Shown in pieces: positions 10,811 through 23,082 of a stretch of 34,048 bases of DNA. The notes under the pieces are model-generated. The model worked only from the letters and a program-made list of their open reading frames with translations, did not search any database and had not been told where the DNA came from. Source of the stretch: Bacteroidales bacterium (GTDB taxonomy: Bacteria; Bacteroidota; Bacteroidia; Bacteroidales; Bacteroidaceae); NCBI GenBank assembly GCA_012729225.1, contig JAAYDO010000081.1, positions 1-34,048 of the forward strand. Direction: 5' to 3'. Each line of letters opens with the position of its first letter. The stretch's first letter is position 1. A program made the position numbers and the translations under genes.

Positions 10811-11206
10811 AGGGGCTGACTGGATTTGACAGCAAGATGAGGTGGTACGTAAGCATGCAGAGAGTTGTTGCCCCTCTCTTTAATCTCAGACATCAACAAT
10901 TTAATTGGCGAAAATTCTTACGCTCTCGCTGCCTAACCGAAGTATAGTAGGTTGGCCTTATTCCCTTGCAAGGCGAGGGAACGAGACATCGCCCAGAAAG
11001 CTATCGTCCTGAAGCGGTCTGATCAGCGGTGCTATAAAATCGGGAATAGTCAATAGGTGTCTCGGTCTATTGATGAAATTTTAGAGAATAAGGATGCAGT
11101 TGGTGGTCTTGGTCTTGCTGCATCACGAAAATCGAAGGCAAGAATAAGCATGTAGAAAGCGTATGGCTTCCTTGTTTGGACGAGGGTTCAATCCCCTCCA
11201 GCTCCA
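10811..11206 (+). ncRNA. ssrA: tmRNA (ssrA)
   Basis: tmRNA rescues stalled ribosomes and tags the incomplete protein for proteolysis. The 5' end GGGGCTGACTGGATTTGACA and 3' end GAGGGTTCAATCCCCTCCAGC form the tRNA-like domain, whose acceptor stem GGGGCTG/CAGCTCC has one G-T pair. The tag frame runs 10907-10936 with resume codon GGC and encodes GENSYALAA followed by TAA. The final ALAA is the protease recognition end. The encoded 3' end is A followed by CTA, not CCA, so the CCA must be made after transcription. Length (about 396 nt), promoter and terminator all fit a one-piece tmRNA. Confidence 0.96.
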
Positions 11207-11215
11207 CTACATTAC

Positions 11216-11278: not shown

Positions 11279-11388
11279 TGCTCCAACGAACAATGGTGCA
11301 ACGGCTAACGAACAATGGTGCAAGTACCCATGAACAATGGTACGATGAGCGATGAACAATTGTTCGATGGCCAACGCACCATGCGTGC
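11279..11388 (+). repeat. Copy A of a dispersed 22-bp-period palindromic repeat
   Basis: Twelve-bp sites begin at 11288, 11310, 11332, 11354 and (degenerate) 11376, exactly 22 bp apart. They read GAACAATGGTGC, GAACAATGGTGC, GAACAATGGTAC, GAACAATTGTTC (a perfect palindrome) and GCACCATGCGTGC. Each seems built from two half-site types, GAACAA and GCACCA, facing each other. The 10-bp spacers differ within the array but resemble those of the second copy. The stretch 11279-11366 aligns without gaps with the reverse complement of 22855-22942 at 70 of 88 positions. It lies between the tmRNA terminator and the end of tilS. A period of 22 rules out a coding repeat. Confidence 0.85.
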
Positions 11389-22556: not shown

Positions 22557-22833
22557 CCTCATCATTCAACATGCGTTCGACGAATTCAGAAGATGAAGCA
22601 GCAGGCTTCAATGGTTGTCAGCACACCTTTTCAATCATACTTCTTCTCTTTCATTTTTAGCTAAAAATCATGGGTGATTCAAGAGGTTTTTCCCTACAGT
22701 GCAAGAAGAACAAAACGATTCTGGCACGTTTTGTTGCTGACTGGCTCTCACAAGAACGCGAACGATGTTATCCCTGCATCCAATAATCCACATATCTTCT
22801 TCAAACATAATAATTTATGGATGCCATAGAGCA
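22557..22833. other. Gene-free stretch between moxR and the repeat
   Basis: The stretch 22380-23082 has no convincing gene. Its ends hold the moxR promoter, a possible terminator, the palindromic repeat and the HU-LysM terminator. In between I see only the motif ATGGGTGAT at 22670, the inverse of ATCACCCAT at 22539, and no plausible ORF. A minus-strand small RNA ending at 22506 is possible but unsupported. Confidence 0.4.
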
Positions 22834-22955
22834 CCATGCTTATGGAGTCAGAAACGCACCATTGTTCATAGGGTATCGAATAATTGTTCATGGGCACTTG
22901 AAGCATTGTTCGTTGGCCTTTGAACAATGGTGCGTTGGAGCACGAAGAACGCTTC
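22834..22955 (-). repeat. Copy B of the dispersed 22-bp-period palindromic repeat
   Basis: Twelve-bp sites begin on the plus strand at 22856, 22878, 22900, 22922 and 22944, again exactly 22 bp apart: GCACCATTGTTC, GAATAATTGTTC, GAAGCATTGTTC, GAACAATGGTGC, GAAGAACGCTTC. A degenerate palindrome CCATGCTTATGG sits one more period away at 22834. In minus orientation the array aligns with copy A; the spacers AAGTGCCCAT (here) and AAGTACCCAT (copy A) differ at one base. The first aligned 12-mer is exactly reverse-complemented relative to copy A while its flanks stay in register. The copy lies just past the HU-LysM terminator. Confidence 0.85.
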
Positions 22956-22966
22956 GGGCATGCGAC

Positions 22967-22995
22967 AAAAAAATGGCAGGATCTCCCTGCCATTT
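22967..22995 (-). terminator. Intrinsic terminator of the ftsY-rimO-HU-LysM genes
   Basis: A perfect 10-bp stem AAATGGCAGG/CCTGCCATTT (22971-22980 with 22986-22995) is followed on the minus strand by a run of T (complement of 22967-22973). It lies about 88 nt past the stop of the HU-LysM gene. Confidence 0.88.
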
Positions 22996-23082
22996 CATTC
23001 TTACACACACCTGCTTTTATTTCTCCCTCCTAACAATAGAGGTAGGCGTGGTAAACTCGTCAAACTCACGCAAATTTACATC

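Follow-up and report, generated by a model that had tools for sequence, protein, structure and literature searches.

The window, that is, the whole stretch of 34,048 nucleotides analysed here, is contig C163 of a draft genome (2,889,628 bases in 213 contigs) whose membership of the Bacteroidales we infer from related arrays in RUG records and from its genes. It carries two arrays of short palindromic sites. Array A, the first copy (11288..11387, plus strand), consists of four sites and a terminal module and is probably a truncated or decayed copy; it was absent among the leader and tail profile matches listed for the genome (at least 84 and at least 75 places, see below). It starts ∼80 bp past the end of a tmRNA gene (window 10812-11207 and 11288) and before a convergent gene, whose frame resembles TilS. 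Array B lies within a longer element (element B) on the minus strand. A preliminary description had proposed that array B is a second, inverted copy of array A, and this was borne out: in the best register tried, the reverse complement of 22855-22942 was identical to 11279-11366 at 70 of 88 positions without gaps, and the runner-up ungapped match to this stretch in the window was 41/88. We also saw the pattern described for the first aligned unit, where GAACAATGGTGC in one array faces its exact reverse complement GCACCATTGTTC in the other while the flanks stay in register. The claim that mismatches concentrate in the sites had little behind it (11 of 48 site positions versus 7 of 40 others). 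That the arrays represent a dispersed element and not a local oddity was evident from a pattern spanning two units, which at ≤3 mismatches had 271 + 282 matches in the window's genome (palindromic places being counted on both strands) compared to 0 + 0 for the reversed control; the exact 12-mer had 59 + 66 matches, again versus 0 + 0 in the control.

Element B (22569..23071, minus strand) is ∼500 bp long and is bounded by inward-facing terminal repeats, with matches resembling terminal inverted repeats (TIRs) at both ends (2/17 mismatches each, 501 bp apart). The repeat on the tail side (22569..22591, plus strand) reads ACATGCGTTCGACGAATTCAGAA, with 2 mismatches to ACGTGAGTTCGACGAATTCAGAA, and the one on the leader side lies at 23054..23071 (minus strand, 2/17 mismatches). 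Between them, the core array at 22856..22933 (minus strand) holds four 12-bp sites with a 22-bp period and 10-bp spacers, and the outer unit of the array, GAAGCGTTCTTC (22944..22955, minus strand), is the first unit of the leader module. Two more segments, the leader (∼110 bp) and the tail (∼260 bp), are repeated from copy to copy outside the array. In element B the leader (22934..23042, minus strand) matched profile R1, which was built from 20 copies including this one, with an E-value of 1.1e-22; the tail (22644..22772, minus strand) matched profile R2 with an E-value of 2.5e-19. The leader also contains an inverted repeat (22971..22995, minus strand; arms of 10 nt, 100% complementary) with a run of T behind it on the minus strand, and is terminator-like there (RNA fold z −3.92). 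No terminator was listed by the consensus scan, and the stem was absent from the consensus fold of 20 leaders. Many copies of the tail (e.g. window 22644-22772) share a stretch that one frame translates as WKKGEVILAGFVAGQLFQ-like, mostly with stops nearby. A coding tail was considered and rejected: stops interrupt the stretch in most of the 18 translated copies, and we did not take it for a gene.

With a nucleotide profile we found 61 elements in 1,047,873 bases on 21 contigs of the window's genome, which were picked as long or hit-rich and not at random (1.05 of 2.89 Mb). Profile searches of the whole genome with stricter filters gave at least 84 leader and at least 75 tail places; these are lower bounds, as the searches scored the best 84 leader and 75 tail candidates per genome. 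The array was present at 50/50 leader matches and 52/54 tail matches (both exceptions lie near contig ends), a sample biased by the choice of training copies, all of which carry the array, and by profiles that reach into the array's outer edge. The element is present in at least 84 copies, and the array is the best-kept core of an IS982-related, MITE-like element of ∼500 bp. In the 44 other genomes of the genus there was no confident match, with 3 leader and 7 tail matches among the candidates scored at E-values of 0.002-0.01, which is near chance given the number of genomes. The two-unit pattern (≤1 mismatch) was present in 1 of 45 genomes and had no exact match in viral contigs. Related arrays were found in an uncultured Bacteroidales (RUG11694) and an uncultured Prevotellaceae (RUG367), in three stretches altogether.

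Read inward, both ends of element B begin with a copy of ACGTGAGTTCGACGAATTCAGAA (at 22569 and 23071). This 23-base repeat had 28 matches in the window's genome (≤3 mismatches) and none in the control. Several of them lie near contig ends, where they are followed by the end of a transposase frame and represent partial IS982 copies; full IS982 copies with ends of the ACGTGAGTTCGACGAATTCAGAA type were found in relatives. One full copy in genome G035 (L189) scored 255.3 bits with the NCBIfam model transpos_IS982 (cut-off 130) and also matched Pfam PF13612. Because its ends are like those of an IS982 element, we regard element B as a non-autonomous, IS982-related, MITE-like element. It has the IS-like terminal inverted repeats of a MITE, is short (∼500 bp), contains no called ORF between its ends and belongs to a family with many copies (at least 84 leaders). 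The family as a whole shows such ends only in part: a 17-base end search found both ends in 5 of 61 copies and neither in 41 of 61, allowing up to 4/17 mismatches, a stringency at which there were 76 pattern matches versus 34 in the control. At ≤6/20 mismatches, the leader end was found in 10 of 51 copies (seven of these at −122 to −125 from the leader anchor) and the tail end in 6 of 42, and both ends lay within 7 mismatches in 3 of 35; shuffled repeats had on average 9.6 and 9.2 mismatches. The flanks of 8 printed TIR pairs showed no clear common target-site duplication, and the copies are old, with a mean column identity of 68% in 15 tails and 72% in 20 leaders that had been picked as good copies. 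By the likeness of its ends to those of an IS982 element, element B is a decayed MITE-like element. Weak remnants of the C-terminal end of an IS982 transposase lie directly beyond a leader and a tail (C113:15460-15525 and C169:3447-3539); they suggest how the element arose from the IS.

The core mostly comprises 3-5 recognised 12-bp units (range 1-6), which are degenerate palindromic sites with a central AT in 236 of 247 units, and the 10-bp spacers follow a palindromic consensus around GC. The preliminary description had spoken of half-site types, and such types are indeed built into the units: GAACA accounts for 215, GAAGC for 93 and GCACC for 60 of the 494 half-sites. GAACA was paired with GCACC in 55 units (26.1 expected) and with GAAGC in 53 (40.5 expected), there were 25 GAACA+GAACA units versus 46.8 expected, and GCACC never faced GCACC or GAAGC among the 247 units. 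An exact GAACA half was present in 190 of 247 units (168 expected under random pairing). The remaining 57 lack it, so the half-sites follow a preference that admits exceptions and not a strict rule. The unit thus looks like a site for a dimer that favours one good half. A CRISPR array was also considered and rejected, since the units vary and the spacers, whose consensus is palindromic, are shared among copies.

The copies keep their distance from each other. Among 40 gaps between neighbours on the same contig the smallest was 6,425 bp, and none was under 6 kb; uniform placement predicts 13.6 gaps below 6 kb, and not one of 5,000 simulations had as few. When elements were instead drawn anew from the actual intergenic regions, each type of region being weighted according to these same elements, 11.0 such gaps were expected and the lowest of 3,000 draws was 3. 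The leader positions among the matches listed (at least 84) gave 29 gaps with a minimum of 6,206 bp. An accumulation of gaps at 10.5-12.5 kb (14 of 40 versus 4.3 expected, P 0.0003) was seen in an interval chosen after seeing the data, and the peak was weaker with the leader positions (6 of 29). In contrast, 17 of 64 gaps between the convergent gene pairs themselves were <6 kb. The elements prefer gene ends: 55 elements have a called gene on either side (the other 6 of the 61, at contig edges, were left out), and of these 35 lay between convergent, 17 between tandem and 3 between divergent genes, and the convergent baseline was 85 of 732 gene pairs or 71 of 262 intergenic regions of at least 150 bp. 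Only 2 of the 55 overlapped a called ORF. These gene calls come from a custom ORF and hexamer-score script and not from a trained annotator. In most of the cases examined, then, the element lies between convergent genes, and no two copies examined are closer than ∼6.2 kb.

Two further repeat families occur in the same 1.05 Mb. The second family consists of 22-bp-phased CCATATGG palindromes (13 copies, e.g. C34:55156-55549, C44:19346-19632 and C42:76963-77268); several copies contain a TGCAAGTTTGACGAATT-like stretch similar to an IS982-type end, and 2 of 13 lie within 200 bp of a first-family copy. The third is an 11-bp tandem repeat, TCTCGAAGGCR (28 copies of 43 after cleaning, e.g. C24:7479-7511, C108:63955-63987 and C34:61228-61271), of which a few copies lie near IS982-type ends. 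We compared their distances to family 1 with a null from which occupied regions were excluded, after removing 15 of 43 family-3 matches as short or genic and the elements that share a region with family 1 (2 of 13 and 1 of 28). Within 5 kb of family 1 there were 1 of 11 family-2 copies (45% expected, P 0.012) and 7 of 27 family-3 copies (47% expected, P 0.02); within 6.2 kb there were 2 of 11 (P 0.007) and 12 of 27 (P 0.07). At C19:6848, GAAGTACACTTC palindromes at 22 bp lie 270 bp from a family-1 array, with another motif and the same phasing.

Phased arrays were also detected in other genomes. In G015, a member of the same genus, near-identical palindromic elements of ∼120 bp carry ATTTTATAAAAT units at 21 bp, and on contig C32 five successive gaps between them measure 10.6-16.3 kb; the 23-bp families GGTGTGACTCACACC and CGACCACGTCGTGGTCG lie elsewhere on the same contigs. 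The ATTTTATAAAAT pattern occurred in two of 45 genomes, G015 and G023. In samples of 60-120 kb from each of G030, G031, G032 and G036 we detected 2-6 arrays, among them additional palindromes. The detector, which also reported a few runs that are not clean palindromes, found none in 40 kb of G009 and none in shuffles. In 1,085,015 bases from eight other genomes, of which seven belong to the genus and the eighth is G045 (RUG11694), the best period was 21-24 bp in 42 of 51 arrays: 21 in 15, 22 in 6, 23 in 18 and 24 in 3, with the harmonics 42/44 in 5 and others in 4. In the window's genome the same detector gave a period of 22 in 25 of 36 arrays, 44 in 9 and others in 2. With the families pooled, 2 of 37 gaps in the other genomes were <5 kb versus 9.9 expected under uniform placement, a null without gene layout, and none of 3,000 simulations had as few. 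According to these period and gap counts, phasing at two helical turns and a scarcity of short distances recur across genomes while the sequence changes. The convergent bias was weaker there (14 convergent, 23 tandem, 7 divergent and 2 genic among 46 arrays, against a background of 45 convergent regions among the 241 intergenic ones that measure 150 bp or more). Positions did not carry over between species in a comparison that rests on few neighbouring genes: eight elements of the window's genome had a neighbour gene in stretches of G015, G045 or G023, an array (of another family) was found at 1 of the 8 gene ends, and no array was detected at three sites where both neighbours lie side by side in G015. 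The arrays at G015:C32:126395 and G030:C90:9008 have a similar outer frame (CCTC..AATCGAC...GTCGATTTTG.GGT) around inner palindromes that differ, as though the units of one element had all changed together between species.

The spacing of the repeats hints at a role in chromosome organisation. Most likely, we infer, the arrays are binding sites of a dimeric protein or a gyrase-like enzyme that anchors or insulates the chromosome. The 12-bp sites would be two helical turns apart and so on one face of the DNA, where a dimeric DNA-binding protein may bind them side by side or gyrase may wrap them. At gene ends, where positive supercoils from converging transcription would meet, this would create an anchored or topologically insulated point about every 11 kb. 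Transposition would supply the copies and selection would keep those with intact sites, while copies too near another would be removed by selection or never fixed; in related species other palindromes would serve with the same geometry. The reading builds on direct observations, namely the IS982-type ends on element B, the copy number, the phasing, the half-site preference, the preference for gene ends and the minimum distance. Taken as a whole (the identity of the element, its spacing at gene ends, and a protein- or gyrase-bound anchor or insulator), we give this explanation a probability of roughly 0.43, slightly lowered because the half-site rule has exceptions and the leader inverted repeat is not conserved. 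A wider version, rather doubtful at present, would credit the genus with a species-tunable system of chromosome spacing, in which repeat elements deliver palindrome arrays phased at two helical turns, each array acts as a bound boundary or anchor, selection maintains about one per 10-15 kb, and palindrome and reader protein are replaced together while the geometry is kept.

Could the elements simply be selfish? A MITE whose transposase, or a partner of it, sits on the internal sites might block insertion nearby (target immunity), with gene ends being safe places to insert. The IS982-type ends and the relics of the IS982 transposase end fit such an origin, as do the same IS982-type ends on some family-2 and family-3 copies and an avoidance that is strict within family 1 (0 of 40 gaps <6 kb) and only partial where families 2 and 3 are concerned. 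A row of site-like repeats with a period of ∼22 bp also recalls the ends of Tn7 and Mu. Neither target immunity nor an ATPase of the Tn7/Mu type that mediates it is known for IS982 elements. Target immunity would explain the distance rule within the family directly, but not the arrays in copies whose ends have decayed, and the copies are old, yet arrays are found where the ends are lost. Nor does it explain why, in other genomes, short distances are rare across families as well. We consider the selfish element the main rival, and somewhat unlikely.

The arrays could instead act as RNA or as cruciform hairpins, i.e. as a terminator, a stabiliser of mRNA 3′ ends or a small RNA. Array B folds at −50.0 kcal/mol (z −7.89), the leader of element B has its perfect inverted repeat with a T run, the elements lie at gene 3′ ends, and the G015 family is a near-perfect long palindrome. 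But array A reached a z of only −2.32, array B was the most stable of 56 arrays, and there was no Rfam match at array A or B at the gathering threshold. Moreover, the arrays folded less well than versions with randomly flipped units (56 of 61 arrays, Wilcoxon P 1.9e-4), which argues that the double strand rather than a hairpin is what matters; there is no selection for hairpins in family 1. No consensus pairs emerged from the tails, whether from 16 of 42 examined on both strands or from a set of 15. The 20 leaders gave only 4 such pairs, none of them from the leader stem. On the fold statistics and the missing consensus pairs we rejected a hairpin or RNA as the main function, and this explanation seems improbable.

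The preliminary description had further suggested that individual 12-bp sites may undergo physical inversion, or conversion from one half-site type to another, a part of its half-site claim that was not supported. One unit of array B does read as the exact reverse complement of the unit aligned to it in array A, and across the units as a whole the asymmetric words are frequent in either orientation (33/22 and 29/23), in part because the elements lie on both strands. At the aligned unit 1, for which 58 of the 61 elements were counted, we found GAACAATGGTGC in 12 copies, the symmetric word GAACAATTGTTC in 10 and the flipped GCACCATTGTTC in 3, together with the one-step intermediates GAACAATGGTTC and GAACCATTGTTC (3 copies each). 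This is a complete ladder of single substitutions through the symmetric word, so no physical inversion is needed. At unit 2, 21 copies have GAACAATGCTTC, a GAAGC-type word, whose reverse complement did not occur among the rows listed; a reversed GCACC-type word stood there in two or three copies. The missing GCACC/GCACC and GCACC/GAAGC words likewise speak against inversion. From the words alone, flipping appears unneeded, and we consider it very improbable. An old duplication of a single array, which had been offered for the case that only two copies exist, draws on the similarity of arrays A and B and nothing further, and is refuted by the 61 elements in 36% of the genome and the at least 84 leaders genome-wide.

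Mobile repeats that keep their distance from each other, favour converging gene ends and retain phased arrays resembling protein sites would be a handle on bacterial topological domains, for whose division there are few sequence-defined boundary elements. They would also be a test case for whether transposons supply architecture: in the genomes sampled the motif varies by species, but the phasing stays at 21-24 bp and short distances stay scarce.

Finally, we compared the arrays with known systems, as far as the accessible parts of the published descriptions go. MITEs with an internal tandem repeat (BrickBuilt, PMC4596501) and IS982-derived MITEs (Cardinium, PMC9769881) are already known. BrickBuilt of Porphyromonas gingivalis resembles family 1 in belonging to the Bacteroidales, in its IS-like terminal repeats, its internal tandem repeat (23 nt) and its often decayed ends (4 of 19 copies have both ends intact; PMC4596501). 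It differs in having 19 copies and ends like ISPg1/ISPg9, and by description both the unit period and the type of end set it apart; the terms 'palindrom' and 'spacing' are absent from the main text of PMC4596501. MITECca01 of Cardinium likewise has an IS982 parent, 169 mostly intergenic copies and is unique to one strain, but it is ∼240 bp long and the word 'tandem' is absent from the accessible text (PMC9769881). In literature on repeat spacing rules and on Prevotella repeats, mostly outside subscription papers, there was no recognisable description of these arrays; for DNA uptake sequences, an even spacing has been claimed and disputed (PMC1939737). The BIME/REP clusters of E. coli are also intergenic arrays of palindromic units and, since they attract gyrase, provide a precedent (PMC6379681). 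The gyrase motif in that study has a phased 10-bp variation in G/C (PMC6379681), and the likeness of our sites to it lies in the phasing only and is suggestive. REPs measure 20-40 bp (PMC3733652), compared to 12-bp sites with a 22-bp period here; a palindrome of 20-40 nt with a GTAG- or CGTC-type tag, as in REP, BIME or REPIN elements, was not found in our units, which are 12-bp words of GAACA, GCACC and GAAGC around AT with 10-bp spacers. REPINs and their RAYTs (PMC3116915, PMC2817692) are, like our elements, species-specific, extragenic and numerous, with a turnover of sequence between species. They differ in that our elements have IS982-type ends and lack distances <6 kb. As next-neighbour distances >200 bp of the SBW25 REPINs do not deviate from random (PMC3116915), the minimum distance of several kilobases is a real difference between our elements and REPINs.
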